Source: Nitrospirota bacterium (GTDB lineage Bacteria > Nitrospirota > Nitrospiria > 2-01-FULL-66-17). Taken from it: 36,380 nt of DNA. The notes beneath the pieces were generated by a model. That model made no database searches, was not told the origin of the DNA, and was given only the letters and a program-made list of their open reading frames with translations. This document shows, piece after piece, positions 3,880 to 23,337 of this stretch (position 1 is its first letter; each line of letters starts with the position of its first letter). The position numbers and the translations under genes were made by a program. The DNA is taken from NCBI GenBank assembly GCA_040757335.1, contig JBFLXB010000002.1:1-36380 (forward strand). The letters are read 5' to 3'.

Positions 3880-4389
3880 TCAGCGCCGTGTCGCCATCAA
3901 CGCCTGGAGCGCGGCCAAAATCTCCGATGGCCGCGGGGGGCAACCGGGGATCTTCACGTCCACTGGGACGTGCCGGTCGACCGGTCCGGTGACCGCGTAG
4001 CTGCCTTTGAACGCGCCGCAGTCGATCGCGCAGTCGCCCAGCGCGATGACGATCTTGGGATCGGGCGTGGACTTGTACGCGTCCTTCAGGGCGCGCTCCA
4101 TGTTGCACGTGACCGGGCCAGTCACCACCAATGCATCCGCGTGGCGGGGCGAGGCCGCGATGTGAACGCCGAACCGCTCGATGTCGTAGATCGGATTGGC
4201 GAGCGCGTTCATTTCCATTTCGCACGCGTTGCACGACCCGGTATCGACCTCGCGGATCGTGAGCGAGCGCCGGAACAACGCCGCCTTCTCCGCGGTCTCG
4301 GGAGTCACCTGAGGCGTCGGAGCCGCCGAATCAGGATAGTGTCCCGTGACCACGCCGGTCTTGAGGCTCTTTCTGATGATTCGAAACAT
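3880..4389 (-). CDS. hyfI: Ehr/hydrogenase-4-like small subunit (HyfI/NuoB-like, [4Fe-4S])
   Basis: 169 residues starting at the ATG at 4389, preceded by AAGGAG at the right distance; a longer frame from 4425 lacks such a site. The protein is homologous to NuoB/HycG/HyfI, the subunit carrying the iron-sulfur cluster next to the quinone or NiFe site. Visible signatures are GSCNACEME (C53, C56), GPVTC (C95), GDCAIDC (C120, C124) and PGCPPRP (C150). Enough cysteines are kept to hold a cubane cluster. It is the last gene of the seven-gene operon, after a 173-bp spacer with a GC-rich palindromic repeat. It would pass electrons between an external donor such as ferredoxin and the cysteine-less large subunit. 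Confidence 0.85.
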   Translation of the reverse strand: MFRIIRKSLKTGVVTGHYPDSAAPTPQVTPETAEKAALFRRSLTIREVDTGSCNACEMEMNALANPIYDIERFGVHIAASPRHADALVVTGPVTCNMERALKDAYKSTPDPKIVIALGDCAIDCGAFKGSYAVTGPVDRHVPVDVKIPGCPPRPSEILAALQALMATRR

Positions 4390-4426
4390 GGGTTCTCCTT
4401 GTAGGGTGTTCGGGAACCACCCCATG

Positions 4427-6158: not shown

Positions 6159-7688
6159 TCACCTCACCGTGATGATGTCGACTGCCATTCCCATCAAGTC
6201 CCTCAGAGGCCGGGGAATCGCCACACCCAACACCATGAGGGCGCCGATGCCGAGCCCTAAGGGAATGTGGCTCACCCCGAGTTTCTCGCCTCGTGAGACG
6301 CCTTCGGGGGGATCCCCCCAGACCATCCCCGCCACCCGGTAGAACAATCCTCCGAACACCACGACGGCAATCACCGTGAACGCGAAGACGAGTACGAGGT
6401 TGCGGGCTTCATCGGCGATCATGATGGTCAGAAAACGACCGAGATGGATCGTGTCAGCGGCATACCCGCGCGTCGCGAGAGCCGCCAGGATCGAGAATTC
6501 GCTGACGAACATGGACAGCGGCGGCATCCCGACCAGCGCGAGGGCGGCGACCAAGAGAGCGGTCGCGGTCCAGGGCTGAGCCTTGAGCAGCCCGCGGACT
6601 CCGTCGATATCCCGCGTCCCGAATCGCATGTGGATATTCCCTGCGGCAAAGAATGCGAGGGACTTGGAAAAGGCGTGGTTGATGAGATGGAACAGGGCCC
6701 CGAACGTCCCCACTCCGCTGGCTCCGAACCCGATCGCCGCGATACCCATGTGCTCGATGCTGGAATACGCGAACAAGCGTTTATAGTCGCGCTGCACCAA
6801 GATAAACAGCGCGGACACCACGAAGGAGAGGAGACCGAAGGTGATCAGGAGATTGCCCGCGTATTCCGGGGAGACGACGGCATCGACCACGACCTTGCTC
6901 CTGAGGACGGCGTAAAACGCGACGGTCTCCAGAACGCCGGCCAACATCGCTGTGACCGGCGCTGGCGCCTCTCCGTAGGCTTCGGGAACCCAGGTGTGCA
7001 TGGGAACCAGGCCGATCTTGGTTCCGTAGCCGACCAGGATGAACACGAACGCCAACTTGACGACGTATGGATCGAGTCGGCCGGCGACCGCCAACAATTC
7101 GGTGATGTTGAGCGCCGCGCTGACGTCTCCCAAAGCCCGGACCGAGGACGAGTACATCAAGACGGTTCCGAACAAGGCCAGGGCGATCCCCACCGAGCAG
7201 AGGATCAGGTACTTCCATCCGGCTTCGAGCGAGGCCTTGCGTCCGAAAAAGTTGATCAGAAACGTGGTCGCCAGGGTGGTGGCCTCGATCGCCACCCAGA
7301 GAATGCCGAGGCTGTTGGCCAGGGTGGCCAAGATCATGGCAAACATAAAGAGATGAAAGAGCGAGAAATACCGCCTCATCAGGTGAGGGGTAATGGTTCC
7401 CTCAGCCAGGTGATGATCGAAGTACCTCCAGGCGTAGAGCGAGGAGGTGAATCCGATCGTGGTAATGACGAGGAGCACGATGCTGGCCAGCGCGTCCACG
7501 TGCACCAGGTCATCGTAGGCGAGGAAGGATCCCACGCGCAGAACGCGCGACATCAACAGGGCTTGAGCGCCTCCCAGGAACGTCATCGCGGCAAAATTGA
7601 TCGTGTACAACGATTTCGGGGTTCGAAGTCCCAGGCTGAGGAGACTCGCTCCGAGGGGGATGGTCAGGAGCAGTGTCACGGCGATCAT
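6159..7688 (-). CDS. hyfF: Ehr antiporter-like membrane subunit (second HyfF-like copy)
   Basis: 509 residues, almost entirely transmembrane. It belongs to the NuoL/M/N-Mrp antiporter superfamily that forms the ion channels of complex I and group 4 hydrogenases. Family signatures include YGTKIGLVPMHTWVPEAYGEAPAPVTAMLAG, of which the AMLAG end is clear, then LFAYSSIEHMGIAAIGFG and HLINHAFSKSLAFFAAG. It is paralogous to the preceding gene, and the two are linked by an ATGA overlap (7685-7688). One of the pair may fill the place of HyfD in hydrogenase-4. It would translocate protons or Na+ across the cytoplasmic membrane. Confidence 0.85.
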   Translation of the reverse strand: MIAVTLLLTIPLGASLLSLGLRTPKSLYTINFAAMTFLGGAQALLMSRVLRVGSFLAYDDLVHVDALASIVLLVITTIGFTSSLYAWRYFDHHLAEGTITPHLMRRYFSLFHLFMFAMILATLANSLGILWVAIEATTLATTFLINFFGRKASLEAGWKYLILCSVGIALALFGTVLMYSSSVRALGDVSAALNITELLAVAGRLDPYVVKLAFVFILVGYGTKIGLVPMHTWVPEAYGEAPAPVTAMLAGVLETVAFYAVLRSKVVVDAVVSPEYAGNLLITFGLLSFVVSALFILVQRDYKRLFAYSSIEHMGIAAIGFGASGVGTFGALFHLINHAFSKSLAFFAAGNIHMRFGTRDIDGVRGLLKAQPWTATALLVAALALVGMPPLSMFVSEFSILAALATRGYAADTIHLGRFLTIMIADEARNLVLVFAFTVIAVVVFGGLFYRVAGMVWGDPPEGVSRGEKLGVSHIPLGLGIGALMVLGVAIPRPLRDLMGMAVDIITVR

Positions 7689-9181
7689 GGGATCTCCACC
7701 GCGACGTCTGCGCCAAACAACGCGATCATGGGAATGAACAGTTCGCGCAGAAAATCGGGCATGGAAAACCCGAGTGAGCCGAGCGCTATGATGTTGACGA
7801 TCAAGGCCGAGGTGGTGAAACGCCGAGTCGGAACGCTCACGCGTTGGCCGTCGTCGTGCGGCTCCCCCAGGATCATGGGCAATACCTGGGCCAGCAGCGT
7901 GGCGAAGGCCAGCGCGAGGAGTCCTAAGAGAACGGCTGCGAGCCAGGGACGCTGTTGATACGCGGCGGTCACGATCAACACCTCACTGATGAACAGGCCG
8001 AACGGCGGCATGCCGGCGAGGGCGATGGTGGCCACCAGCATACCACCCCCGGTGGCCGGCTCATGTCTGAGGAGGCCAGTAACTCGTTCTGTCACCTTGT
8101 GTCCGTGCCGCAGCAAGACCAAGCCCGCGGCGTAAAACGCGGTGGACTTCGCGAGAGCGTGGTTGAGCATGTGGAAGAAGCCGCCGAACACGCCGGCCGG
8201 TCCCCCGACGCCGAATCCGACCAGGGCGATTCCCACGTGTTCGATGCTCGAGTACGCGAAGAGCCGCTTGTAATCGCGCTGGATCAGCATGAAGACCGCG
8301 GAGACGGCGATCGATAAAAGGCCGAGCCCGATGACGATTGGCGCTGTGAAGTCCGCGCCGGCTGCCTGATCCACGATGTTCTTCAGCCGCAGCACCGCAT
8401 ACAGGGCGATGTTCAACATGAGGCCGGATAGCATGGCGCTCATTGGCGTGGGCGCTTCGGCGTGCGCATCAGGCAGCCAGGTGTGCATGGGCGCCACACC
8501 GGCTTTGGTCCCGTACCCGATCAACACAAAGACGAAAGCCAGCTTGAGGGTGGTCGGATCCAATGCAGGCGCGACCAAGCGGAGCGCACTCCAGCTCAAG
8601 GCTTCCATGCTTACGCCCAATACGCGTTCCGACGCATAGTACACCAGCACTGTGCCGAACAATGCGAGTGCGATGCCAATGAAGCTCAAAATGATGTATT
8701 TCCATCCCGCCTCCAAGGCGGCTTTGGTTCGCTCAAAGCCCACGAGGAGCGCCGCGGCAAGCGTGGAGCCCTCGACCGCGATCCACATGAGAGCGATGTT
8801 GTCGAGGGTAGTGGCCAACAACATCGCACCGAGGTACAGGTTCAATAAGAAAAAGAAGAACCGGTACCGAGTCTGCTCCAGGTGGCCGCGCGCGAGTTCC
8901 TCACCCATGTACCCCAGGGCATAGATCAGCCCGGTCCCGCCCACGGTCGCCAGCATGAGGATCATGAAGGCAGCGAGCGCATCGGCACGCAGGAGGTGTC
9001 CAACCACGGCGTCGTCCCCGGAAGCGACATGCCCGACGATGAGCCCCATCGCGACCAGGAGAACGACCACGAGCGCGCCTTGAAGCCATTCCATCGCTCG
9101 TTTGGTGCGGGTGGTGAGGCTCAACAGGCCTGCAAAGAGCGGAGCCAGCGTGAGAACAGCCAGGGAGGCGCCCGGACTCAT
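7685..9181 (-). CDS. hyfF: Ehr antiporter-like membrane subunit (first HyfF-like copy)
   Basis: 498 residues, polytopic, of the same NuoL/M/N-type proton-translocating family. Motifs include YGTKAGVAPMHTWLPDAHAE, LFAYSSIEHVGIALVGFG and FHMLNHALAKSTAFYAAG. A nearly identical arrangement occurs in the next gene, so the two probably arose by tandem duplication. It starts with ATG at 9181, overlapping the stop of the HyfE-like gene by four bases. With HyfB it gives this complex three antiporter-like subunits, implying up to three ion paths. Confidence 0.87.
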   Translation of the reverse strand: MSPGASLAVLTLAPLFAGLLSLTTRTKRAMEWLQGALVVVLLVAMGLIVGHVASGDDAVVGHLLRADALAAFMILMLATVGGTGLIYALGYMGEELARGHLEQTRYRFFFFLLNLYLGAMLLATTLDNIALMWIAVEGSTLAAALLVGFERTKAALEAGWKYIILSFIGIALALFGTVLVYYASERVLGVSMEALSWSALRLVAPALDPTTLKLAFVFVLIGYGTKAGVAPMHTWLPDAHAEAPTPMSAMLSGLMLNIALYAVLRLKNIVDQAAGADFTAPIVIGLGLLSIAVSAVFMLIQRDYKRLFAYSSIEHVGIALVGFGVGGPAGVFGGFFHMLNHALAKSTAFYAAGLVLLRHGHKVTERVTGLLRHEPATGGGMLVATIALAGMPPFGLFISEVLIVTAAYQQRPWLAAVLLGLLALAFATLLAQVLPMILGEPHDDGQRVSVPTRRFTTSALIVNIIALGSLGFSMPDFLRELFIPMIALFGADVAVEIP

Positions 9182-9861
9182 TCCTTCAACCCGGTGAGCT
9201 TGCTCACATCCACGCTGTCAAAGGCGTCTTGGAGCCGATGGGTGTAGATGCCGATGATGAGGCCGGCCACCAGCACGTCGAAGAACACGCCGAGCTCCAC
9301 GATCAACGGCATCCCGTACGCGGCCGCGGCTGCTCCCAGGAACAGACCGTTCTCGACCATCAAGAACCCCACGACCTGCGTGACGGCTTTTTTCCGCGCG
9401 ATCATGGTGAAGAACCCGATCAGCACGATTGCAAGCGCAATGGCCAAGGAATCTTTGGTGAGAAGAAATCCGATGCTGGCCACGGGTTCGGTGACCGAAA
9501 AGGCCAGGATGACCAGGGCGCCGCAAATCAGGAGAGAGGGAGGAATATTGATCACAAAGGCTACTTCCCGCTGGACGTTCAGTCGCTCAATGACCCGCTT
9601 CAAGATCAAGGGGATGATCACGGCTTTGATCAGAATCGTGAGCCCTGCGGCGACGTAGATGTGATGGATGCCGGTTAAGAACGCCACGAGAGCCGCCGTC
9701 ACCGCCAGAAAGACGGACTGGACCGCGAAGAGATCCACGCACGCGGAGAGCCGACGTTGCGCCACGATGGCGAACGAGGTGACCAACAACATCATGGAGC
9801 ACAGGTTCACCAACTGGGAACCCAGGTCCGCGGGCACCATCGCCGGGGTGATCCCGGTCAT
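9178..9861 (-). CDS. hyfE: Ehr HyfE-like membrane subunit (NuoK-related)
   Basis: 227 residues from the ATG at 9861, which overlaps the stop of the HyfC-like gene by four bases. A longer frame upstream is out of keeping with the family and lies inside the HyfC gene. The protein has about seven hydrophobic helices. The C-terminal half (FLMVENGLFLGAAAAAYG, ELGVFFDVLVAGLIIG) is the HyfE/NuoK-like part that helps transmit conformational energy in complex I-type machines. The tight overlaps on both sides place it firmly in the operon. Confidence 0.85.
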   Translation of the reverse strand: MTGITPAMVPADLGSQLVNLCSMMLLVTSFAIVAQRRLSACVDLFAVQSVFLAVTAALVAFLTGIHHIYVAAGLTILIKAVIIPLILKRVIERLNVQREVAFVINIPPSLLICGALVILAFSVTEPVASIGFLLTKDSLAIALAIVLIGFFTMIARKKAVTQVVGFLMVENGLFLGAAAAAYGMPLIVELGVFFDVLVAGLIIGIYTHRLQDAFDSVDVSKLTGLKE

Positions 9862-10835
9862 GGTGTCCCCCGCAGGATGTAGAAGAACACCAGAGCTAGC
9901 AGTGACAGGATGAACGCGACCCCCAGCAGGTCCGTCACGCGAAACAGCCTGAGCTTGGCGAACATAGACTCGATCACGCCCACGAGGACGGCGAGCCCTG
10001 AAATCTTGATCAACCACACGCCCAGCCCGACGGCCAGAGCGGCTGGGTGCGCCGCGATAGCGATCCCCCACGGGGCGAAGATGTTGCTCAAGAGAGTCAG
10101 TATCAGGAGCAGCTTCATGGCGGAGGCCCACTCGACCAGGGCCAGGTATCGCCCCGAATATTCCAGCACCATGGCCTCGTGGATCATAGTGAGCTCCAGG
10201 TGCGTGGCGGGGTTGTCCACGGGCACGCGGCCGGTCTCAGCCAAGGCCACGATGAACAGGGCCGCCAAGGCCATGAGATGGGGCGGGGGATCGGTGACGA
10301 TGCCCTGGAGCAAAGCCGTGTTGTGCACGATCGTGCTCATGTTGGTGGAGCCCGCGGTGAGGCCCACCGCAAAAATGGAGAGCATCATGGCGGGTTCGGT
10401 CAACGAGAACACGATGGCCTCGCGGCTGCTTCCCATGCCGCCGAAGGCCGAGCCCGCGTCCAGCCCCGCGAGCATGAGAAAAAACGTGCCCACGGTCAGC
10501 AACGAGACGATGGTGATGACATCGCCCGCAAAACTCAGCGGGACGCGCGAGAGGAAAATGGGCACCAAGACACTGGCCGCAAGCGTGGAGGCAAACAGGA
10601 CATACGGCGTTGCCGTGAAGATCCATGACGTCGTGGTCGAGACCACTACGCCCCTCTTGAACAGCTTGGCCAGATCCGAGTACGGCTGCAACAGGTTCGC
10701 CCCGCGCCGGCACTGCAGCCGCGCCTTGACCTTGCGGATCAGCCCGACGACGAATGGCGAGACGCCAAGAATGATAGCGGTCTGAAGGAGGGCGATGCCC
10801 GCTGATTGGAGCATCGTCATTAGGAGCCTGTCCAT
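9858..10835 (-). CDS. hyfC: Ehr HyfC/NuoH-like membrane anchor subunit
   Basis: 325 residues. Homologous to NuoH/HycD/HyfC, the helical subunit that joins the peripheral arm to the membrane arm. Features are a first helix followed by the cytoplasmic loop RKVKARLQCRRGANLLQPYSD (start of that loop at ~35) with KLFKRG, and later ETGRVPVDNPATHLELTMIHE, whose acidic residues line the quinone/ion channel. The start is uncertain. The ATG at 10835 lies inside the terminal arm of a hairpin repeat and has no clear ribosome site; ATGs at 10820 and 10814 are alternatives. Confidence 0.86.
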   Translation of the reverse strand: MDRLLMTMLQSAGIALLQTAIILGVSPFVVGLIRKVKARLQCRRGANLLQPYSDLAKLFKRGVVVSTTTSWIFTATPYVLFASTLAASVLVPIFLSRVPLSFAGDVITIVSLLTVGTFFLMLAGLDAGSAFGGMGSSREAIVFSLTEPAMMLSIFAVGLTAGSTNMSTIVHNTALLQGIVTDPPPHLMALAALFIVALAETGRVPVDNPATHLELTMIHEAMVLEYSGRYLALVEWASAMKLLLILTLLSNIFAPWGIAIAAHPAALAVGLGVWLIKISGLAVLVGVIESMFAKLRLFRVTDLLGVAFILSLLALVFFYILRGTP

Positions 10836-10949
10836 GAAGGGCCATCTGCGGCGTTGCCGCTTGCGCTCCGGTCCTCACGTACGCACCCAGTACGCTGCGG
10901 TCCGGTGCTCAGCGGCGCCTTGCATCTGGCCCGTTCCTGAACAGGCTCC
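10823..10949. repeat. Long hairpin repeat, copy 1
   Basis: A 127-nt element bounded by perfect 9-bp inverted ends (GGAGCCTGT at 10823-10831, ACAGGCTCC at 10941-10949). The internal sequence can fold back on itself almost throughout, with a GTACGCACCCAGTAC tip. The core (10840-10930) is about 87/91 identical to copy 2 at 17426-17545. It fills the gap between the HyfB-like and HyfC-like genes and includes the first codons of the annotated HyfC start. Confidence 0.9.
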
Positions 10950-10968
10950 GCTTTCGCAGTGAGAACCC

Positions 10969-13017
10969 TTACCCGACCCATAGCAGCAACGCCAGCAACG
11001 TCAGAAAAATGTACGCAAGATACAAATGCAGACTTCCCGCCTGCACCACGCGGAGCCGGTTGGCCACCATGTTGAACACCCACACCACGGGGTCGTAGAG
11101 ATATCGTTGAAACGTCGGCTCGATGTGCACCTCGAACCGCATCCGTCTGGCGAAATACCTGGATTCCTCCAGCATGTCTTTCTCGATCTTCACAGTTGGG
11201 CGGTAGATCGTGCTGAAGACCTGACGAATCGGCTGCGCGAAGCCGGTGGCCGTGTATTCCATGCTCGGCTTGAGATTGATGCCGCATCCCCACGTCTTAT
11301 AAAAGCGTCGTTTCAGTTTTCCCGCGAAGAGGAACACCCCTAGGAGCGTTGCGGGGATGATCACCGCGAGCAGGATTGTCAGCACCGGGGTGGAAATGCT
11401 GGCGAACCCGACCCCCATGGGCATGAGCGCCCACCCCCCTTCCGTGACCACGCTCTGCGCGAGCTGGGCGCCGGTGAATGGCGCGATTACGCGATCGAGG
11501 ACCGGCACCACCAGCATGGGTGCCAGTCCGAGCGCCACGCATACAGTGGCGAGCGTGCCCATCCCGACGAGCATGGGTAGGGGCGCCTCCTTGGCGTTTT
11601 TGGCGTGGTGGCTGCGCGGCATGGCCAAGAACGCGACCCCGAATGCCTTGGCAAAACAGGCCACCGCCAAGGCCCCGGTCAGCGCCAGCATGGCCGCGCC
11701 GATCGGAATCAAGATCTTCATCAAGAGGTCGGGGAGCATGAAGCTGAGAAAGAGACTCTGGAAGGTCAGCCATTCGCTGACAAAACCGTTGGTGGGGGGG
11801 AGCGCCGAGATCGAGATCGACCCCACCAGAAAGAAGAATGCGGTCCACGGCATGGCGCGGATCAGTCCGCCGTATTCCTCCATGTTTCTGGTGTGGGTCG
11901 CGTAGAGCAACGACCCGGCTCCCATGAACAGGAGTCCCTTGAACATGGCGTGGTTCATGGTGTGGTATAGCCCGGCGAGCAGGCCGAGCGCGGCGAGATG
12001 CGACAGGCCGTACGATTGAAAGATCATGCCCGCGCCGATCCCCAGCAGAATGATGCCGATATTCTCCACGCTGTGATAGGCGAGCAGGCTCTTGAGGTCG
12101 TGTTCCATCAACGCGTACATGACTCCCAATAGTGCGGACACGGCTCCGATGGCCAACACGGCAAAGCCCCACCACCAGGGGAACGCGCCGCCGAGAAAGT
12201 CGAAATACACCCTGATCAGACCGTAGATCGCCGTCTTGATCATGACGCCGGACATCAGGGCCGAAATGTGCGATGGGGCTGCGGGGTGAGCGTAGGGCAA
12301 CCACACGTGCAAGGGAACGATGCCGGCTTTGGCGCCGAACCCGATGAACGCCGCCACGAAGGCGATGGTTCGGAAGCCTTCGGGGAGGGCGTGGCCCGAC
12401 TGGCGAAATGTGTCAAACGTGAAACTGCCGGTCTGTTGATAGAAGACCAGATAGGCGATGAGGATGAATGCGGTGCCCACATGGGTCATCACCAGATAAA
12501 AGAAACCCGCGTACCTGGTTTCCGCCTTCTCGTGTTCGGTGACCACCAGCAAGTACGAGACGAGGGACATGACTTCCCACACGATGAGGAAGAAGAAGGC
12601 GTCGTCCGCAGTCACCACCAGGATCATCGAGAGCAGAAAGCCGTGGTACAGGGCGCCCAAGGCGCCGATCGAGTGGCGTTCGTAGAACTCGCGGACGTAC
12701 CCCAGCGCGTAGATCGATGCCGCGACACCCGAGAGAGAGATGACGAACACGAAGAAGGCGGACAGGGGGTCCAGACGGAGCTGGATGGTGAGCAGCGGAA
12801 TGGTCGATGGAAGCGAGAAGACGAGGGGTTCGGGAGCCAGTAAGCCGCCGATCCCGACGAGCACGCCCGCCGCGCACGCCACGATCGCGGAGCCGTGGGC
12901 CAGCCGGTTCTTGGCCTCGTCCCTCCAGGGCGCGATGAGGGGGACCAGCGCGCCGGCGACATGCGCGGTCATGAGGCTGAACAGGGCTGGAGGAACGATT
13001 ACCGCCGGATCAAACAC
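10969..13017 (-). CDS. hyfB: Ehr HyfB/NuoL-like proton-translocating subunit
   Basis: 682 residues and the first gene of the operon. A polytopic NuoL-type antiporter subunit: IGFGAKAGIVPLHVWLPYAH, LLAYHSVENIGIILLGIG and HTMNHAMFKGLLFMGAGS are all present. The C-terminal ~110 residues form the cytoplasmic extension typical of HyfB/HycC (FYKTWGCG, then a final membrane helix LYLAYIFLTLLALLLWVG). The start is GTG at 13017 with a weak GGAA ribosome site. It would carry ions as the distal pump module. It is separated from the HyfC gene by 133 bp filled by a hairpin repeat. Confidence 0.88.
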   Translation of the reverse strand: MFDPAVIVPPALFSLMTAHVAGALVPLIAPWRDEAKNRLAHGSAIVACAAGVLVGIGGLLAPEPLVFSLPSTIPLLTIQLRLDPLSAFFVFVISLSGVAASIYALGYVREFYERHSIGALGALYHGFLLSMILVVTADDAFFFLIVWEVMSLVSYLLVVTEHEKAETRYAGFFYLVMTHVGTAFILIAYLVFYQQTGSFTFDTFRQSGHALPEGFRTIAFVAAFIGFGAKAGIVPLHVWLPYAHPAAPSHISALMSGVMIKTAIYGLIRVYFDFLGGAFPWWWGFAVLAIGAVSALLGVMYALMEHDLKSLLAYHSVENIGIILLGIGAGMIFQSYGLSHLAALGLLAGLYHTMNHAMFKGLLFMGAGSLLYATHTRNMEEYGGLIRAMPWTAFFFLVGSISISALPPTNGFVSEWLTFQSLFLSFMLPDLLMKILIPIGAAMLALTGALAVACFAKAFGVAFLAMPRSHHAKNAKEAPLPMLVGMGTLATVCVALGLAPMLVVPVLDRVIAPFTGAQLAQSVVTEGGWALMPMGVGFASISTPVLTILLAVIIPATLLGVFLFAGKLKRRFYKTWGCGINLKPSMEYTATGFAQPIRQVFSTIYRPTVKIEKDMLEESRYFARRMRFEVHIEPTFQRYLYDPVVWVFNMVANRLRVVQAGSLHLYLAYIFLTLLALLLWVG

Positions 13018-13808: not shown

Positions 13809-14624
13809 TCAACGCCAGACAATCTGATGTTTATCCAAGATGCCTTCGATGATAGATTCGTGCTCCCACCGCTGACGTCGCGGGTTGCTCGCTCCGGTGA
13901 GGTCGTCCGGCGGCCGCTCCGTTTCGTACAGCACGCCCACGGGCATTGCGTTGGGAGTGAAGGCGGTCCCGATCGCGGCGATCAATCCGCCATCGGATTC
14001 CGCCGGCGCTTCACTCACCGCGGCGCCCTGGTCCACCCGATGAAACGTCGGACACGGCGACAGAATGTTCACGACTGAAAAACCACGGTGCCGGAGCGCA
14101 CGGCCGATGAGGACACTCGTTCTCTCGATCTCCCACGCTACGGACTGGGCCACGAAGGTGCCGCCCGCCGCGAGTACCAAGGAGAGCACATTCAACGGGT
14201 GTCGGCCGTTCTGGTTACTCGTCGCCGAAGGCTGGCCACCCGTCATGCCGTACGACAGGTTGTCGAGAATCAGATAGGTCAGATCATAGTTTCTTCGGGC
14301 CGCGTGGAGCAGGTGCGTGAGGCCGATTGATCCCGTGTCGCCGTCTCCGGCCACGACAATGACGGAAAGCCGTGGATTAGCGGCTTTGACTCCGATCGCC
14401 AGGGGAAGCACCCGTCCGTGCACGCCGTGAAGACCGTAAGCGTTGAGGTGAAAGCTGACCAGGCTTGCGCATCCCATGCCGGTCACCACGACCGTGTCGG
14501 ACGGCGCGACTCCCTCGCGTTGGAGCGCGCTGACCAGTGCGTCGAACGCCTGGCGGTGGCCGCAGCCCGGGCACCAGGTGAGGCCGCTTGGGGCGGCGGG
14601 CGACGTCGCAGCGACCGGAGTCAC
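13809..14624 (-). CDS. korB: 2-oxoacid:ferredoxin oxidoreductase, beta subunit
   Basis: 271 residues from the GTG at 14624, which overlaps the alpha-subunit stop (GTGA) and follows an AGAGGA ribosome site; an upstream GTG at 14657 is possible but less well placed. The beta subunit binds thiamine diphosphate and a [4Fe-4S] cluster. TWCPGCGHRQ provides cluster cysteines, GDGDTGSIG to LDNLSYGMTGGQPS is the ThDP/Mg motif, and C in LSPCPTFH is the expected distal ligand. With the fused gamma-alpha subunit it would interconvert a 2-oxoacid plus CoA and an acyl-CoA plus CO2, using ferredoxin. Whether the substrate is pyruvate or 2-oxoglutarate cannot be decided from this sequence alone. Confidence 0.9.
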   Translation of the reverse strand: MTPVAATSPAAPSGLTWCPGCGHRQAFDALVSALQREGVAPSDTVVVTGMGCASLVSFHLNAYGLHGVHGRVLPLAIGVKAANPRLSVIVVAGDGDTGSIGLTHLLHAARRNYDLTYLILDNLSYGMTGGQPSATSNQNGRHPLNVLSLVLAAGGTFVAQSVAWEIERTSVLIGRALRHRGFSVVNILSPCPTFHRVDQGAAVSEAPAESDGGLIAAIGTAFTPNAMPVGVLYETERPPDDLTGASNPRRQRWEHESIIEGILDKHQIVWR

Positions 14625-16387
14625 CGGGTCAAATCCTCTTTGCCGAAAATGTCCCACACCGAGATGGGCTCGCCGCGAGTGAGCGTGAGACGTTTCGGAC
14701 GGATAGGGGTGGTGGCGCCGATCAAGTGAGCCAGATGGCCTTGGTGGTTCGCTTCGACCACTACGATCTGTTCGACGGATTCGGCGAACCGCGAAAGGGC
14801 ATTGACGGGCGGCGGCCAGAGCATCTTCGGATACAGGGCCGCGATCGGCATTCCCAAACGCTCGAAACGCGCAACCGCCTCGCGCACAGCGCCTTGCGTG
14901 ATGCCCCAGCTCACGAGCCCAACAGGCGTCGATTCCGGCCCTTCGCGCTCGACCATCTCGAATTCGGCTCCGCGCAGCTTGGCGAAGCGTCGGGCCATCA
15001 TGACCTTATGAACGTCGCCGGCGTCCGTTGGCCGGCCCGTGTCGTCGTGCTCCAACCCGGTCGCCACGTATGCTCCACCCTCGGACCCCGGAAGGGCCAT
15101 GGGCGCGATGCCATCGTCGGTCGCCGCATACCGGTGGTACGGAGCGTCGGCGGTGTGAGCCGCATCGCGTTCGATCAGCGGGATCGACGTGAGATCGGGT
15201 CGAGGGATGGTCTGCATGCGCCTGGCCAGCGACGCGTCGGTGAGCAGGAGCACCGGGGTCTGGTAGCGCTCGGCGAGATTGAACGCCTCCACGGTGAGGG
15301 AGAAACAATCGCGGACATCAGCGGCGGCGAGCACGATCTTGGGCACGTCGCCGTGGCTGCCGAAGACCGCCGACAGAAGGTCGGCCTGCTCGTGCTTGGT
15401 GGGCAGGCCGGCGCTCGGCCCGCCGCGCTGCACCACCGCCACCACCACCGGAACTTCGGCCATCGCCGAAAACCCGATCATCTCCTGCATCAGGTCGAGT
15501 CCCGGACCTGACGTGCCGGTCATGGCCTTGGTCCCGGCAAACGAAGCGCCGATCGCGACGCCCAGGGAGGCGATGGGGTCCTCGGCTTCGTGAACCCGTC
15601 CGCCGACCAGCGGCAAGTGTCTGGCGAGCCAGGTGCCGAGCGACGTCGCAGGCGTAATCGGATAGGACGAATAAAGGCGACATCCCGCGGCGAGCGCGCC
15701 CAACCCGATGGCGTCGTTGCCGGTCAACAGCAGCGTCTGGTCCCGTGAGGCGCCGACCGGAGCCAACACGGGGTCGCGTTTGATCAGGTGTTGTTCTGCG
15801 TACGAGAGGCCTGCTTCGAGCGCCCGCAGGTTGACAGCGATCGTGTCGGGGCCTTTCGAGGCGAAGTGCTCGCACACCGCGCCCTCCAAGTTCGATCGCG
15901 AGAGGCCAATGAGTTCGATCAAGGCGGCAAGGGCCACGAGGTTTCGGGTCACCGCCTGTCCGCTGTGTTGAGCGATCTCCGCCATGGGGACGGGATAGGA
16001 AATGATGCGATTGCTGTGAGTCACCACGTCACTCAGGGCGTCGTAAATGTCGTAAATAAGGATGCCGTCGTCACGTATGACGTCCCGGTGGGCGAGGTAG
16101 GCGTCGGCATTGAACGCGACAAGGACATCGACTCCGTCTCCCTCGGTGCACAGCGGATGCGGGGCCATTCGGACCTGGGAGGCGACTAGGCCGCCGCGGA
16201 TCTCGCTCGGGAACGTGGTGTCGGAGAGCACTTCTAGGCCGCTGAGCGCAGCGGTGCGCGCAAGGAGCGCGCCGGCCGTGACAATCCCGTCCCCGCCGGC
16301 GCCGACGACGCGAATCGCGAGGCTTTCGTCCCGATACCGTCGGTTCAGGGGTGCGGCCAAGTCGAGCGGACTCGTTGTGGTCTCCAT
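14621..16387 (-). CDS. korA: 2-oxoacid:ferredoxin oxidoreductase, fused gamma-alpha subunit
   Basis: 588 residues in one chain. Residues ~24-195 are the gamma domain (VVGAGGDGIVTAGALLAR, FPSEIRGGLVASQVR). Residues ~215-588 are the alpha domain (YSSYPITPATSLGTWLA, EDPIASLGVAIGASFAG, MTGTSGPGLDLMQEMIGF, QRGGPSAGLPTKHEQADLL). The fused order gamma-alpha is that of KorA-type enzymes, whereas the Hydrogenobacter five-subunit enzymes keep gamma separate as far as I recall. The alpha domain binds CoA and the 2-oxoacid. The ATG at 16387 abuts the stop of the small TPR gene, suggesting coupling. It is the core of the 13165-17405 operon. Confidence 0.92.
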   Translation of the reverse strand: METTTSPLDLAAPLNRRYRDESLAIRVVGAGGDGIVTAGALLARTAALSGLEVLSDTTFPSEIRGGLVASQVRMAPHPLCTEGDGVDVLVAFNADAYLAHRDVIRDDGILIYDIYDALSDVVTHSNRIISYPVPMAEIAQHSGQAVTRNLVALAALIELIGLSRSNLEGAVCEHFASKGPDTIAVNLRALEAGLSYAEQHLIKRDPVLAPVGASRDQTLLLTGNDAIGLGALAAGCRLYSSYPITPATSLGTWLARHLPLVGGRVHEAEDPIASLGVAIGASFAGTKAMTGTSGPGLDLMQEMIGFSAMAEVPVVVAVVQRGGPSAGLPTKHEQADLLSAVFGSHGDVPKIVLAAADVRDCFSLTVEAFNLAERYQTPVLLLTDASLARRMQTIPRPDLTSIPLIERDAAHTADAPYHRYAATDDGIAPMALPGSEGGAYVATGLEHDDTGRPTDAGDVHKVMMARRFAKLRGAEFEMVEREGPESTPVGLVSWGITQGAVREAVARFERLGMPIAALYPKMLWPPPVNALSRFAESVEQIVVVEANHQGHLAHLIGATTPIRPKRLTLTRGEPISVWDIFGKEDLTR

Positions 16388-16645
16388 CTAGGAACGGGGA
16401 TGTTGTGCCTCGGCTTGGGCGAGCGCCTCTCGCGCACGAAGGTGGTTGGGCTGAAGGCGGAGCACCTCTCGTAACTCGGCAAGTGCATCCGCAGTCCGCC
16501 CGATTTCGAGGAGAAAGAGGCCGAATTTCAGGCGAAGATCCACATCAAGGGGATTCGCCGCCAAGTGACGCCGAAAGTAGTTGATGAGCCACTCGGCCTG
16601 TTCACGCTCGCTCGCGAGGTCGCGTCGACGGTGACGATGGTCCAC
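16388..16645 (-). CDS. Small TPR-type protein inside the OFOR operon
   Basis: 85 residues if started at the GTG at 16645, 13 bp after the preceding stop with GGGA upstream; a TTG at 16690 would add 15 residues that overlap the previous gene. The segment NPLDVDLRLKFGLFLLEIGRTADAL, of which GLFLLEIGRTADALAELR is the clearest part, followed by LRLQPNHLRAREALAQAE, has the spacing of one and a half to two tetratricopeptide repeats. The protein is soluble, without a signal peptide or cofactor motif. It lies between an accessory-subunit gene and the catalytic alpha gene, with a stop-start junction on the alpha side. It may therefore act in assembly or as a small structural subunit. Function is inferred only. 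Confidence 0.6.
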   Translation of the reverse strand: MDHRHRRRDLASEREQAEWLINYFRRHLAANPLDVDLRLKFGLFLLEIGRTADALAELREVLRLQPNHLRAREALAQAEAQHPRS

Positions 16646-16658
16646 CAGAGATCCCGCG

Positions 16659-17405
16659 CTACTCGGCGTGCTCGTCGAGACCAACTTCAAGTTCGTGCCC
16701 GAGTTCCTTCATGTAAGCCATCATCTGCTTTCTCGCCTCCACCTTGTGCCGCTTGCGCGCTGCGAGTTCGGCTTTTCCGGCCTCGGTCAGCGCCCAGGGG
16801 ACGATCTTTCCACCGGTACGCAACGCGACGATCGCGTCGCGGAGCTTCGCGAGTTTCTTCAGATCAACCCATCCCAAGCTGGCGATGGCGTCTTCGTGGG
16901 TATCGTTGGCGCAGATCGCGATCGTGTAGCAGTTGGTTCCCCCTCGGATAATCTTCATCATGACATTGACGAAGTGACAGTGAGCGTCCATGAACAGGCC
17001 TACTTCGATCTTGTTGTGCCAGATCGTCAGGTTGGGGTGACAGGGATTGATCACGGCCTCGGGATCAATCTTGGGATAAATCGGGCGATAGTCGGGCATG
17101 GGGATAATATTGATTCCGGGGATGTGCCCGACCAACTCGAGCGCGGCGGCCGCACGTACCCGCGTCGCTTCGTTCCATCCCCACAACAACAGGGGCCCGG
17201 GGAAGAACGTGGGATTACGTCCCGTGAGCAATTTTTCCGCGATACGCGGAATCAGCTCCTCCTCCGGCACGACGTTGCCTTCCAGCCACCCTTCGCCCGG
17301 GATTGGGAATCGCGTCGCCAAAGAAGCCGCGGCCGGTGGAAGCAGCTCACCTGGTCCGGGTTGAATTGGGCCTCTGCGTTTTTGGGGGGCACGCTGAGTG
17401 GACAT
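16659..17405 (-). CDS. OFOR accessory subunit, CO-dehydrogenase-beta/CdhB-like (long paralogue)
   Basis: 248 residues from the ATG at 17405, with AAGGAG 8 bp upstream. First gene of the OFOR operon. It shares NPTFFPGPLLLWGW, MPDYRPIYPKIDPE, HPNLTIWHNKIEVGLF, AHCH and KIIRGGTNCYTIAIC with the 208-residue protein at the other end of the operon. It adds a ~50-residue basic helical tail (KAELAARKRHKVEARKQM and on). The pair probably forms a pseudo-symmetric delta/epsilon module on the oxidoreductase. No CxxC pairs occur, so a classical 2x[4Fe-4S] delta subunit is absent from this operon. The annotation rests on motif similarity to the CdhB-type family and on context. Confidence 0.68.
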   Translation of the reverse strand: MSTQRAPQKRRGPIQPGPGELLPPAAASLATRFPIPGEGWLEGNVVPEEELIPRIAEKLLTGRNPTFFPGPLLLWGWNEATRVRAAAALELVGHIPGINIIPMPDYRPIYPKIDPEAVINPCHPNLTIWHNKIEVGLFMDAHCHFVNVMMKIIRGGTNCYTIAICANDTHEDAIASLGWVDLKKLAKLRDAIVALRTGGKIVPWALTEAGKAELAARKRHKVEARKQMMAYMKELGHELEVGLDEHAE

Positions 17406-17425
17406 CTATGTCTCCTTCGCTATGA

Positions 17426-17545
17426 GCCTGTCCAGGGAAGGCCATCTGCGGCGTTGCCGCTTGCGCTCCGGTGCTCACGTACGCACCCAGTACGCTCCGC
17501 TCCAGTGCTCAGCGGCGCCTTGCATCTGGCCTTCCCTGAACAGGC
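17426..17545. repeat. Long hairpin repeat, copy 2
   Basis: A 120-nt element with inverted ends GCCTG (17426-17430) and CAGGC (17541-17545) and a perfect 12-bp stem CAGGGAAGGCCA (17433-17444) with TGGCCTTCCCTG (17527-17538). The core is nearly identical to copy 1. It lies in the expected 5' untranslated leader of the OFOR operon, ending 21 bp before the first ATG. Confidence 0.9.
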
Positions 17546-17630
17546 GCCGCTTTCGCGGTTAGTCGAACAAACTGCTCATCCAGACGTGGCGAGCAACGAC
17601 CCGTGTTCCCACGGTCGAAAGATGTCGGCG

Positions 17631-17647
17631 TTGCACCGAGCATGCCA
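17631..17647 (-). promoter_or_regulatory. Sigma-54 (RpoN) promoter for the OFOR operon
   Basis: The minus strand reads TGGCATGCTCGGTGCAA. This matches the -24/-12 consensus TGGCAYR-N4-TTGCW at every position but one (GTGCA for TTGCW), with the invariant GG and GC at the correct spacing. Transcription would start near 17620 and give a ~215-nt leader containing hairpin repeat copy 2. The divergent gene pair encodes an NtrC-type sigma-54 activator and its kinase, which makes this the natural target. Confidence 0.7.
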
Positions 17648-17736
17648 AGGACGGCGCTGTGGCGGAACAGCAGGAACTGCGAGTAATCCTGATGAACGGG
17701 AGCAAACTTTGCGGCCTCGGGAAAAACTTGCACCCG

Positions 17737-17745
17737 TGTTATAAT
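17737..17745 (+). promoter_or_regulatory. Extended -10 promoter for the two-component operon
   Basis: TGT-TATAAT: a perfect TATAAT (17740-17745) preceded by TG one base upstream. No good -35 box is present at 17-18 bp, as is common for extended -10 promoters. The start site would fall near 17752, which places the ATG at 17744 upstream of the transcript and favours the ATG at 17768 as the kinase start. Confidence 0.6.
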
Positions 17746-17767
17746 GCGCCACCGCTATGTCGGTGTG

Positions 17768-19138
17768 ATGTTTCGCCCCAGTCCTCAACAGCCCATACTC
17801 GGGTATTTCCCGCTCAGGGTCATCGTCCCGGTGCTCGTTATCGTCGCCGCGGTTGTCGCCATCGTGGCCTTTCTCGGACTGGAACACGAGCGGCGGATCC
17901 TCGAACAGGTCACCAACCAAGGGGCGCCTGTCGAGTCGGCCCGCGCCCGCCTCATCCAAACGACCGCCCTCCTCTTCCTCTTTGCGGGCCTCTGTATCTC
18001 AGCGCTTCTGACGTACCAGAGCTATCAATCGACCAAACGAACGCTGGAGCGGGTCAAAGGACTTGCTCGGAATATCCTTCACAGCATTCCCAGCGGGGTG
18101 TTGACGGTGGATCAGGCGGGCCGCGTGACGGCCATCAATCCGATGGCTGAGCGAATCTTGGGTGTCACGGCTGAATCGACATTGGGTCGGGGGCTTGACC
18201 GACGGTTCGGCGTCGACGATCCGATTTTCCGATGCATGCGTGCGGCCTTGGATCATGCCGAGTTCGTTCGGAATCTCGATATTCGATATCCGTTGCAGGA
18301 AGCCCGCTGGATTCGGCTCACGACGTCATCGCTCGCCGATCACGACCACGGGAGAGACGGCGTGGTGATCCTGCTCCAGGATGTCACTGACCTCCTGGTG
18401 TTGGAAGAACAGCTCCGGCGGAGCGAGAAACTTTCGGCGCTCCATACGCTCTCGGCCGGTGTGGCTCACGAGATCCGCAACCCCTTGAGCGCGATCGACC
18501 TCAATCTGCATCTCTTGCAGGAAGAGATCGGCGTCGAGGCCATGGATCCGGAGGCGGTCCAGCGTTACTCGGACATCGTGAACGCGGAGGTCCGACGAAT
18601 CAGGGGCATCGTGGATAACTTTCTCCGCTTTGCGAGGCCGACGTCACTCGTCTTGGGCGAGGTCAAACTCGATGGCATCGCTCGACATATCGGAGAGCTC
18701 GTCCGGTACGAGGCCGAGGAGCGCGGAGTCGAGATCCGAATCGATTTCCCCGAGAATCTTCCCGCAGTTCCAGGCGACGAGACTCAATTGGGGCAGGTTT
18801 TTCTCAATCTCATGATCAATGCCGTCCAAGCCATGCCGCAAGGAGGGATCCTGCGGGTATTCGGCGAAGAGCGGGTCGCCGACGCAGGGCCGCTCGTCGA
18901 GGTTTCGGTCAGCGACACGGGGCTTGGCATCAACAAAGCCGACCTCGCGAAGGTCTTCGAGCCGTTCTTCAGCACCAAGCCGGACGGCCACGGCCTCGGG
19001 CTCGCGATCGCCTACCGCATCATTGAAGACCACCGGGGGACCATTCGGGTGACGAGTGAGGCGGGGGCTGGAACCACGTTTGTCCTATCATTCCCAGCCG
19101 CTCGCGTTCCCGACGAGCAGCCGGTCCAGCAGATATGA
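17768..19138 (+). CDS. Membrane sensor histidine kinase (NtrB/AtoS-like, PAS domain)
   Basis: 456 residues from the ATG at 17768. Domains in order: two membrane helices (VIVPVLVIVAAVVAIVAFLG at ~18-37 and ALLFLFAGLCISALLTY at ~67-83) with only ~30 residues between them, so the periplasmic part is very small. A PAS domain follows (~102-215; HSIPSGVLTVDQAGRVTAIN). The HisKA domain has phospho-acceptor H234 in GVAHEIRNPLSAI. The ATPase has the N box LMINAVQAMP, G1 DTGLGI, F box FEPFFST and G2 DGHGLGLAI. With almost no sensory loop, the signal is probably membrane-borne or read by the cytoplasmic PAS. Its stop overlaps the regulator start (ATGA). Confidence 0.9.
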   Translation: MFRPSPQQPILGYFPLRVIVPVLVIVAAVVAIVAFLGLEHERRILEQVTNQGAPVESARARLIQTTALLFLFAGLCISALLTYQSYQSTKRTLERVKGLARNILHSIPSGVLTVDQAGRVTAINPMAERILGVTAESTLGRGLDRRFGVDDPIFRCMRAALDHAEFVRNLDIRYPLQEARWIRLTTSSLADHDHGRDGVVILLQDVTDLLVLEEQLRRSEKLSALHTLSAGVAHEIRNPLSAIDLNLHLLQEEIGVEAMDPEAVQRYSDIVNAEVRRIRGIVDNFLRFARPTSLVLGEVKLDGIARHIGELVRYEAEERGVEIRIDFPENLPAVPGDETQLGQVFLNLMINAVQAMPQGGILRVFGEERVADAGPLVEVSVSDTGLGINKADLAKVFEPFFSTKPDGHGLGLAIAYRIIEDHRGTIRVTSEAGAGTTFVLSFPAARVPDEQPVQQI

Positions 19139-20493
19139 ACGCGAAACCGAGAATTCTCGTCGTAGACGACGAGCCCAACATCCGCAGCGCGATCGCCACT
19201 ATTCTCGACCGCTCGGGATACGCGGTCGAGAGCGCGGCCGACCCCGGCGAGGCTGACCGTCTGCTGGGTCATTCCGACTGCCACGTCATCCTGTTGGATC
19301 TACGCATGCCCGGGGCGAATGGCCTGGAGTGTCTGCATCGGTGGAAATCCGAGCGTCCGGACACCGAGATCATTGTCGTGACGGCGTTCGGTTCTGTTGC
19401 GACCGCGGTCGAGGCGATGCGGTTGGGCGCCTACGATTACCTCCAGAAACCGATCGACCGAGAGCGGCTCCCCATTGTGGTGAAAAAGGCGGTCGAACGT
19501 CATCTGTTGAGTGCCGAGAACAAAGCGCTCAAGGAACGACTGGCACGCCGGAATGGATGCGGTTCCCTGATCGGCCACAGTCCCGCGATGCTCCGGGTGT
19601 ACGAGCTGATCGACCTGGTGGCAGGGAGCGACGCCACCGTGTTGATCGCGGGGGAAAGCGGGGTCGGGAAGGAACGGGTCGCGCGCGCCATCTACGAACG
19701 GGGGCCGCGCGCCAATGGGCCGTTCATCGCGGTCAACTGCGGGGCGCTCCCGGAGGCGCTTCAGGAAAGCGAGCTGTTCGGGTACGAACGGGGCGCCTTT
19801 ACCGGTGCGACGACCACCAAACCGGGCCGCTTTGAGCTCGCGCACGAAGGCGTCCTCTTCCTGGACGAAGTCGGTGAAATGAGCGCGAAGACCCAGGTCG
19901 ATTTCCTCCGGGTGCTCGAATCCAGGGAGTTCCGTCGCGTCGGCGGGACCCGTCTCGTCAAGGTGGATGTCCGTATCGTGGCGGCCACCAATCGCGACCT
20001 CAAGAAAGCCGTTGAAGAGGGACGGTTTCGAGAAGACCTCTATTACCGGTTAAACGTGGTGCCGATTCGCGTCCCTTCGCTGCGTGAACGCGCAGACGAT
20101 CTGCCGCTGTTGATCGAGGCGTTCCTGGACGAATTCGCCACGACGTACCAGCGCGAACGTCAGGTCCTCGCGCCGGAAACGCTCGAGCGGTTTACGGACT
20201 ATCCGTGGCCGGGCAACGTTCGGGAACTCCGCAACCTCCTCGAACGTCTGGTCATCACCAGTCGGGAATCGGTGATCGGCCCGGTGCATCTCCCGGCGGA
20301 GATGCTGAACGAGGTTCCCGTGAGAATGGACGGAAATCGGCTGGCGGGGAAAAGTCTCCGAGACATCGAAAAGCACGCGATCATCGAGACGCTCCGCAAC
20401 GTGACCTCGCACCGCGAAAAGGCGGCCAAAATCCTCGGCATCAGTCCGCGCGCACTTCAGTACAAGATCAAAGAGTACGGGATCGACGCGTAA
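19135..20493 (+). CDS. NtrC-family sigma-54-dependent response regulator
   Basis: 452 residues. Receiver domain 1-125 with acidic pocket D11/D12, phospho-acceptor D55 in ILLDLRMPG, the TAFGS switch region and K in LQKPIDRE. AAA+ domain ~150-385 with Walker A GESGVGK (173-179), sigma-54 contact loop GAFTGA (220-225) and Walker B VLFLDEVGEM. The C-terminal Fis-type helix-turn-helix is KAAKILGISPRALQYKIKEY. All residues needed for ATP-driven opening of sigma-54 promoters are present. It is co-transcribed with the kinase. The sigma-54 promoter at 17631-17647, facing away from this operon, is the most obvious target. Confidence 0.94.
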   Translation: MNAKPRILVVDDEPNIRSAIATILDRSGYAVESAADPGEADRLLGHSDCHVILLDLRMPGANGLECLHRWKSERPDTEIIVVTAFGSVATAVEAMRLGAYDYLQKPIDRERLPIVVKKAVERHLLSAENKALKERLARRNGCGSLIGHSPAMLRVYELIDLVAGSDATVLIAGESGVGKERVARAIYERGPRANGPFIAVNCGALPEALQESELFGYERGAFTGATTTKPGRFELAHEGVLFLDEVGEMSAKTQVDFLRVLESREFRRVGGTRLVKVDVRIVAATNRDLKKAVEEGRFREDLYYRLNVVPIRVPSLRERADDLPLLIEAFLDEFATTYQRERQVLAPETLERFTDYPWPGNVRELRNLLERLVITSRESVIGPVHLPAEMLNEVPVRMDGNRLAGKSLRDIEKHAIIETLRNVTSHREKAAKILGISPRALQYKIKEYGIDA

Positions 20494-21761: not shown

Positions 21762-22844
21762 ATGACACCACGAAACGAAGATGAAGTCACCCCGGAGGTG
21801 GTCCCAAGTCCGTCTGCCGGCGTCACCCGCGACGGACTCATCTACGACGCCGACCACGCCGTTCTGTCAAAGGGATTGACCCGGCGAGGGTTTTTGAAGG
21901 TCTCGGCTTTGACCGGTGCGACGTTGGTCGTTGCGCCGACCTTGGGGGGGCTGGTACGCCCCACGGCCTCGCTCGCTGCGGCGTCGGACTTCACGTTCGC
22001 GATCATCGCGGACAGCCACACCATGGGATCCAAGAACCCGCGGATGAAAACGCGGCTCGTGGCCGCGATCAAAGAGATCAACGCGCTGAGCCCGACGCCG
22101 GACTTCGTCATGTACATGGGTGACGCGGTCCACGATGGGTCGGCGGAGCAGTTCAAGTACTTTGAGGAGATCATGGCGGCGCTCAAGCCCAAGGCGTATT
22201 ACATCCCGGGCGAGCATGACTGGTACTTGGACATGGGTGACTACTATCAGAAGAACCTGATTAAAGGACAGGTTCCCTATTCGTTCGACCACAAGGGCGT
22301 GCACGTCGTGGGGCTCAACGGGATCAACTTCAATGATTTCTGGAGCGCCCGCAAGCTGACTCCGGAGGAGCGGATGGACGTGGCGGGAACGCTCAATCAT
22401 CCCATGCCGGGACCGTTTCTGCTCGGAAAGGCGCAGTTGGATTGGCTCCAGAAGGATCTGGCCAACGTGCCCAAGAACGCGCCGGTCCTGGTGTTCACCC
22501 ACCCGCCGCTGTACCACTACTACCGACCCTGGAATTTCTGGACCGAGGACGCGGCCGACGCGCACGCCATCCTCAAGCCCTTCCAGAACGTCCAGGTGTT
22601 CCACGGCCACGTCCATCAGATCGTTCAGCACCAGATGGCGAACATGAAATTCCTGAGCACGGTGTCCACGTCGTGGCCCCATCCTTACCCCGAGACCTAT
22701 AAAAAATTGGGGTTGAAGGGTCAGATGCCTCGCTCGAATCCCGCCCTGCCGTTCGACGGTCTGGGGTGGTCGAACAACAAGGTGGCGGGCGGGGTGGTCA
22801 GCCACGAGGACGTGTTATGGACCCTCAAACCGCCGAAGGTGTGA
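21762..22844 (+). CDS. Tat-exported metallophosphoesterase
   Basis: 360 residues; ATG at 21762 with GGAGG upstream. A Tat signal lies after a ~38-residue lead-in: TRRGFLKVSALTGATLVVAP (RR at 41-42), so the enzyme is folded before export. The calcineurin-like metallophosphoesterase motifs are in order: D84-x-H86 in IIADSHTMG, YMGDAVHDG, PGEHDWY in place of the usual GNHD, VFTHPPLYH, and HGHVHQI (GHxH). The metal ligands therefore look intact, apart from Glu for Asn in the GNHD box. The substrate is unknown. It is followed after 37 bp by a monoheme cytochrome gene, so a redox-related role is possible but unproven. Confidence 0.88.
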   Translation: MTPRNEDEVTPEVVPSPSAGVTRDGLIYDADHAVLSKGLTRRGFLKVSALTGATLVVAPTLGGLVRPTASLAAASDFTFAIIADSHTMGSKNPRMKTRLVAAIKEINALSPTPDFVMYMGDAVHDGSAEQFKYFEEIMAALKPKAYYIPGEHDWYLDMGDYYQKNLIKGQVPYSFDHKGVHVVGLNGINFNDFWSARKLTPEERMDVAGTLNHPMPGPFLLGKAQLDWLQKDLANVPKNAPVLVFTHPPLYHYYRPWNFWTEDAADAHAILKPFQNVQVFHGHVHQIVQHQMANMKFLSTVSTSWPHPYPETYKKLGLKGQMPRSNPALPFDGLGWSNNKVAGGVVSHEDVLWTLKPPKV

Positions 22845-22881
22845 CGCTGCGTTCAGGCGCGTGACGAGCAGAGGAGACGCG

Positions 22882-23337
22882 ATGACCACGTCAAGGACAT
22901 GGGCGAAGTGGGCGCTGCCGGTGGTGGCGGTGTTGTTCGCTGGCGTGTCGGCCGCCCAAGGCGCAGACGTTGTGCAACGGAAGACCCTTCAGAGTCCGCA
23001 GTTGTCCCCGGAGTTGGTCAAGAAGTCCGAGGAGGAAATGGCCAAGGCGATCAAGCGGGGCGACGAACTGTGGCACGATCGCAACCTCGGCACCAACGGC
23101 ATGGCGTGCAACATGTGTCACCCCGACGCCGCGGTGACCCACCCTGAGACGTATCCGAAGTACAAGCAGCAGTTCGGGAGGGTGGTGTCGGTGCAGCAGT
23201 TTATCAACTGGTGCATTCAAGTCCCGCTCCAGGGCAAACTCAGAGAGCTCGGCAGCGATGAGTTGGTGGCGCTGGAGGCGTATATGAATGATCAGAATCG
23301 GGGGCAGGTGATGGATGTGGGGCTCCCCGCTCCGTAG
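22882..23337 (+). CDS. Periplasmic monoheme c-type cytochrome
   Basis: 151 residues from the ATG at 22882, with GAGGAG at the right spacing; a GTG at 22861 is a less likely start. An N-terminal Sec signal peptide (WALPVVAVLFAGVSAAQGA) precedes a soluble domain with one heme motif, CNMCH (76-80), in NGMACNMCHPDAAVTHPET. A later lone Cys in INWCIQVPLQ is conserved-looking. Distal Met candidates lie in the C-terminal half. The pattern resembles SoxX/TsdA-type cytochrome domains, but the match is too short to name it. It is encoded with the metallophosphoesterase. Confidence 0.85.
   Translation: MTTSRTWAKWALPVVAVLFAGVSAAQGADVVQRKTLQSPQLSPELVKKSEEEMAKAIKRGDELWHDRNLGTNGMACNMCHPDAAVTHPETYPKYKQQFGRVVSVQQFINWCIQVPLQGKLRELGSDELVALEAYMNDQNRGQVMDVGLPAP

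Follow-up and report, generated by a model that had tools for sequence, protein, structure and literature searches.

The window, meaning the whole stretch of 36,380 nucleotides analysed here (contig JBFLXB010000002.1 of a Nitrospirota bacterium, assembly GCA_040757335.1), carries two divergent gene groups that are separated by a 362-bp spacer (17406-17767). One of them, a tight array of genes on the minus strand, spans 17405 to 3880, from a CODH/ACS epsilon-like protein to a NuoB-like subunit. On the plus strand, a membrane sensor histidine kinase and an NtrC-type response regulator are encoded. The spacer contains a sigma-54-type promoter element that faces the array.

The gene array and its membrane complex

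The array begins with a CODH/ACS epsilon-like protein (PF02552; 16659-17405) and a small TPR protein (16388-16690), followed by the subunits of a 2-oxoacid:acceptor oxidoreductase (OFOR). The latter are an alpha-gamma fusion (14621-16387), in which the gamma and TPP-binding alpha domains are recognized by TIGR03710 above its cut-off and for which the best solved relative is 6n2n chain A, and a TPP-binding beta subunit (PF02775; 13809-14657). A second CODH/ACS epsilon-like protein (PF02552; 13165-13812) closes this part of the array. A paralogue of the first such protein opens the other OFOR cluster of the genome; since that cluster also starts with one, this type of protein is an OFOR companion in this organism.

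The first-pass annotation of this DNA did not mention that the OFOR side continues through a complete hydrogenase-4-like membrane complex to position 3880. The membrane arm consists of a HyfB-like antiporter-type subunit (10969-13017), which matches hydrogenase 4 subunit B above the cut-off, a NuoH/HyfC-like subunit (9858-10835), a small subunit (9178-9861) that is named by its HyfE position and has no Pfam match, and two further antiporter-type subunits, one NuoN/HyfD-F-like (7685-9181) and one NuoN/HyfF-like (6159-7688). These are followed by a fused 30+49-kDa large subunit (HyfG-like; 4563-6155) and a NuoB/HyfI-like small subunit (3880-4425), all on the minus strand. Among solved chains, 7z0s chain E (formate hydrogenlyase subunit 5) comes nearest to the large subunit, and the composition, a HyfB-type membrane arm with a HycE-like large subunit, is that of the group 4 Hyf type. 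Identity as a group 4 [NiFe] hydrogenase was rejected on the ligand test, as both nickel-iron CxxC motifs are missing from the large subunit, and neither motif was seen in any of 91 orthologue calls (drawn from two overlapping locus sets, with some genomes counted twice). By that test the complex is not a hydrogenase, in agreement with the loss of these motifs already published for the Nitrospira complex in the available parts of PMC7305129 and PMC12542776.

Two side observations can be added. In another locus (L101:4796-6247), an OFOR-derived protein with gamma and core-II domains and without the TPP-binding domain lies beside a hydrogenase-4-like complex. In the window itself, a metallophosphoesterase gene with a Tat-type signal is followed by a SoxA/TsdA-type cytochrome c gene (21762-23337).

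The kinase (17768-19138, plus strand) contains PAS, HisKA and HATPase_c domains, and its ATG at 17768 is preferred over that at 17744. The 452-residue regulator (19135-20493, plus strand), which is the proposed activator, combines a receiver, a sigma-54 interaction domain with the GAFTGA motif and a Fis-type HTH, and has orthologues in related genomes. The divergent membrane kinase and GAFTGA activator that had been proposed from the sequence are thus borne out by domain matches, and together they form a two-component pair of the NtrC type. The HTH segment of the orthologues, HREKAAK-LGIS-RALQYKIKEYGI, is present in the window regulator with small changes, and this conservation is consistent with recognition of the same site. 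Exact GAFTGA is missing in 5 of 37 regulators, four of which have GAFSGA and one GAFTSA; GAFSGA replaces it in the regulators of L162, L168, L175 and L188, where divergent joint sites (dyad plus promoter element, see below) are strongly conserved. The best NCBIfam matches of kinase and regulator are to the AtoS-AtoC and ZraS-ZraR pairs, which likewise involve sigma-54 activators. The window pair differs from these in its neighbours and in scoring under the curated AtoS and AtoC cut-offs (316.3 of 646 bits and 469.5 of 714), so that AtoS/AtoC identity was rejected.

The spacer and its elements

The best sigma-54-type site of the window, TGGCATG-CTCG-GTGCAA (TGGCATGCTCGGTGCAA), occupies 17631-17647 on the minus strand, with a predicted start near 17620. 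It has the GG-N10-GC core in a TGGCAYG/TGC context at -24/-12, and scored 16.1 in a matrix scan (second best site, 13.4). The position and strand of this near-perfect promoter facing the OFOR operon are as first described. Of 2000 shuffled spacers, 1 had so high a score on the minus strand; for the whole window, shuffling gave a site this good in 23 of 300 cases, and the bare consensus has 7 exact matches in the 3.56-Mb, 61-contig genome versus 10 for the reversed pattern. Since the score is significant for the spacer and not for the window, and the consensus is no commoner than its reversal, the element is by itself weak evidence that would not settle the sigma-54 reading; consensus counting alone was dropped as evidence. 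The genome has one rpoN match (PF04552, E 5.1e-58).

Upstream of the element lie two imperfect copies of an inverted repeat, TGCAA-N3-TTGCA, each with two mismatches. The first (17701-17713), a candidate activator-binding dyad, is centred 59 nt, and the second (17720-17732) 78 nt, upstream of the -24 element. Of 20000 shuffled versions of the region, 3 gave a pair with a spacing of 16-22 nt as here. The palindrome reported earlier, GCAAACTTTGC (17702-17712), holds in both position and distance, its centre preceding the expected start by about 87 nt, and is in fact a two-mismatch copy of the class-wide dyad. A search of the window's own genome for further regulon members with the dyad at up to one mismatch gave no enrichment (38 sites versus 73 for the reversed-pattern control).

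On the plus strand, an extended -10 sequence (TGTTATAAT, 17737-17745) is likely a housekeeping promoter of the kinase and activator genes, and its block GTGTTATAATG is kept upstream of the kinase gene in the nearest relative, G001. Between the sigma-54 element and the first array gene lies a MITE-like dispersed element (17424-17546) with terminal inverted arms of 24 nt each (17426-17449 and 17522-17545). This 120-bp repeat has 41 genomic matches, the leader copy included, and a second copy (10821-10963) fills the junction of the HyfB-like and NuoH-like genes. The leader RNA is predicted to fold much more stably than shuffled sequences do (z -8.0), which is expected for such an inverted repeat.

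In G001 (locus L134), the gene order matches that of the window from the regulator through the array, up to the end of the contig, and the repeat is absent from its shorter spacer. That spacer carries TGGCATGTGAGGTGCAA (TGGCATG-N4-GTGCAA; L069:10452-10468), which faces the same operon and differs from the window element at three of the four middle positions only; when the spacers are compared, the elements are out of register with each other. Dyad-like pairs 18-19 nt apart are found in both spacers, and shuffling produced such a pair in 3 (window) and 4 (G001) of 20000 cases. Protein identity to the window is 75-88%, except for the OFOR and TPR proteins (50-59%). More closely, most other array genes are 78-88% identical, the kinase 75%, the TPR protein 55% and the OFOR proteins (13809-16387) 50-59%, which suggests rapid divergence or replacement of the latter. 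An OFOR protein used as query for related loci returned no relative.

Conservation across the class and rival readings

The comparison was extended to 80 loci found by HyfB alignment, with genes in relatives called by a crude ORF chooser and not by a gene finder. The window organism belongs to the class of Nitrospira; its named relatives are Nitrospira and other class members, including Nitrospira defluvii and N. moscoviensis, and 31 named loci hold an orthologous regulator (tblastn >400 bits). In five or more families of the class, activator orthologues are linked to operons of this type, and 30 of the 45 bacterial loci with 5 kb or more of sequence upstream of HyfB contain the regulator. Just two of these 45 have a complete OFOR, with both the TPP domain and the beta subunit, on the upstream side of HyfB: L134, which has the regulator, and L136, which does not. 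With so few, and one of them having no activator nearby, the earlier description of sigma-54 control as dedicated to the OFOR is too narrow: the OFOR genes do face the promoter, and the constant partner and predicted target of the regulator is the hydrogenase-4-like membrane complex, not the OFOR. Which genes come first past the promoter element varies among loci: HyfB, genes for TPR-like proteins, a gene for a protein of about 310 residues that looks secreted, or the kinase gene.

In 26 loci the regulator is co-oriented upstream of HyfB, and within the 900 nt past its stop codon NGGCAY...TGCA is the best plus-strand site in 24; 22 of these elements lie 201-286 nt past the stop. In the other two (L141 and L146), the best sites of the 900-nt scan are not of the recurrent form, and joint sites were found farther on, facing structural genes. 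The dyad with up to one mismatch occurs in 24 of the 26 (0.375 expected from shuffles) and is perfect in 16 of those 24 (0.015 expected), usually with its centre 110-114 nt upstream of the -24 element; the dyads of the window are closer to the element than this spacing of about 113 nt. Taken jointly, a dyad about 80-135 nt upstream of a -24/-12 element is found in 30 of the 31 loci with the regulator and in 0 of 13 without it (at least 9 kb of upstream DNA each), in counts that are not independent, as the loci and genomes are related by descent. The single miss is L134, where the dyads have two mismatches. At this joint threshold, which is lenient, weaker matches also appear in two of five archaeal loci. 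As a separate observation, Methanoperedens-type archaeal loci (L205-L213) carry HyfB homologues that are 52-55% identical, some loci having two in tandem.

On the scale of whole genomes, a strict joint pattern (dyad-element gap 87-115) occurs in 70 of 266 Nitrospiria genomes versus 6 of 266 when one base is added to the spacing. The regulator is carried by 56 of these 70 genomes and by 17 of the 196 others (Fisher p about 6e-29, uncorrected for kinship; G432 left out of the count). The window genome and G001, from both of which the strict pattern is absent, are among these 17. In other families, G006 has elements ahead of its CODH-epsilon-like gene and also of HyfB, the latter with a perfect dyad some 116 nt in front, and in G004 an element precedes HyfB and has dyads on its upstream side. 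What is observed directly is the set of sequence elements, the linkage of the genes and the conservation of the elements together with the regulator. Conservation of GG-N10-GC among relatives, on which the original reading had been staked, was looked for and is present in the nearest relative and in those 30 activator loci; this comparison, unlike the single sequence, supports the sigma-54 promoter reading.

One rival reading is that the -24/-12 match arose by chance and that a sigma-70-type promoter, perhaps inside the leader or the repeat, drives the operon. The genome-wide consensus count favours it, as do the absence of the strict joint pattern from the window genome and the non-homologous spacer position of the element in the nearest relative. 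This reading is nonetheless highly improbable, given a near-identical element in that same relative, a dyad pair in both spacers and a joint architecture that follows the regulator across the class; moreover, a simple -35/-10 scan of 17300-17800 found no sigma-70-type site. An even smaller chance is given to a sigma-54 promoter served by another activator, for instance a formate-responsive one of the FhlA/HyfR type, with the neighbouring pair regulating something else. The available part of PMC5596200 lists an fhlA gene for genomes of Nitrospira, and activator-like candidates are many in Nitrospiria genomes (11-174 first-look candidates per listed genome). Against this reading stand the dyad-plus-promoter arrangement, seen in 30 of 31 hydrogenase-4-like loci with the regulator and in none of the 13 without it, and the genome-wide co-occurrence of the two.

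The third possibility, that the regulator acts mainly on the kinase-regulator gene pair itself or on some other operon nearby, with the structural array close by accident, is very unlikely too, if the least so of the three. It draws on several genomes with extra joint sites upstream of the kinase gene or of the membrane protein gene that precedes it. In NPIRA-type loci the strong site points toward the kinase, and L162, L168, L175 and L188 have another, divergent joint site that faces HyfB. Against it, many loci have sites directly before HyfB or the TPR and secreted-protein genes preceding it, and the sole strong element of the window faces the structural array. In N. defluvii-like loci (L236, L238-L240), a dyad-plus-promoter site lies before a membrane protein gene upstream of the kinase, and this gene is a probable second target.

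Proposed mechanism and relation to known systems

The reading preferred here, to which we assign a probability of roughly 0.87, is that the spacer is a sigma-54 control region in which the kinase-regulator pair drives the promoter at 17631-17647 through paired dyads. In the sequence of events that we infer, from the signal and phosphorylation through dyad binding, transcription and continuity of the operon to the enzyme reaction, a signal would be sensed by the PAS-containing membrane kinase, leading to phosphorylation of the NtrC-type regulator. The regulator would then bind the paired dyads, here in their imperfect copies, and promote open-complex formation by sigma-54 polymerase. The transcript would pass the leader with its hairpin-forming repeat and enter the array, the products of which would be the two CODH-epsilon-like proteins, the OFOR and the hydrogenase-4-like complex without a nickel-iron site, which is probably ion-pumping. 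The kinase and regulator genes would use their own extended -10 promoter, and feedback is plausible because that promoter adjoins the dyads. As for the reaction, the redox chemistry of a 2-oxoacid or of ferredoxin would most likely be coupled to the quinone pool and to proton motive force. The original interpretation thus appears right in its core, in the form of a class-wide two-component sigma-54 switch for the hydrogenase-4-like complex, with the OFOR also carried in the window's family.

The E. coli hyc and hyf systems are similar in that a hydrogenase-3/4-type membrane complex is under sigma-54 control. FhlA is a one-component sensor-type activator, whereas the window activator is an NtrC-type response regulator with a partner kinase; the window system differs further in a large subunit without nickel-iron motifs, in OFOR genes within the array and in the TGCAA-N3-TTGCA dyad. 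The hycA and hyfA promoters are listed as sigma-54-dependent in PMC3118216, and the FhlA/HyfR class is described in PMC3162934, both available in part. By composition and named genomes, the complex is the same as the hyf-like 'group 4 hydrogenase' of Nitrospira (PMC5596200, PMC7305129 and PMC12542776, in their available parts), to which the window array adds the OFOR. The 2M complex I of Nitrospira (PMC6606698 and PMC10579370, available in part) is similar as an antiporter-rich relative of complex I with a proposed low-potential ferredoxin link. From its description there, it is a different cluster, with no nuoH and an enlarged nuoG, whereas the window complex is hydrogenase-4-like, with a fused NuoCD and a NuoH-like subunit. 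The accessible literature covers the hyf-like complex and the ligands it has lost, annotations of FhlA and HyfR and, in Nitrospira, sigma-54 regulators of nxr; no description of the promoter, the dyad or the kinase-regulator pairing was found in the texts searched, a set that most subscription papers lie outside.

In the available parts of PMC7305129 and PMC12542776, the hydrogenase-4-like complex of Nitrospira is an orphan of unknown function. The class-wide combination of regulator, dyad and promoter offers a direct handle on it, in that identification of the signal would make the purpose of the complex testable, and the OFOR within the array is a concrete clue to its chemistry. A further, speculative idea, which is rather unlikely to hold in full, is that all these parts form one membrane machine. 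In such a machine, the OFOR, tethered by the two CODH-epsilon-like proteins, would dock on the hydrogenase-4-like ion pump in place of hydrogenase chemistry and link the quinone pool and proton motive force to redox reactions of 2-oxoacids or ferredoxin, with the conserved kinase-regulator pair switching it on according to redox or oxygen state. The source of reduced ferredoxin in Nitrospira nitrifiers is described as unresolved in the available text of PMC6606698, the 2M complex I proposal aside. If the idea is true, Nitrospira carbon fixation would have in this membrane machine a candidate for its missing point of low-potential electron entry or exit.
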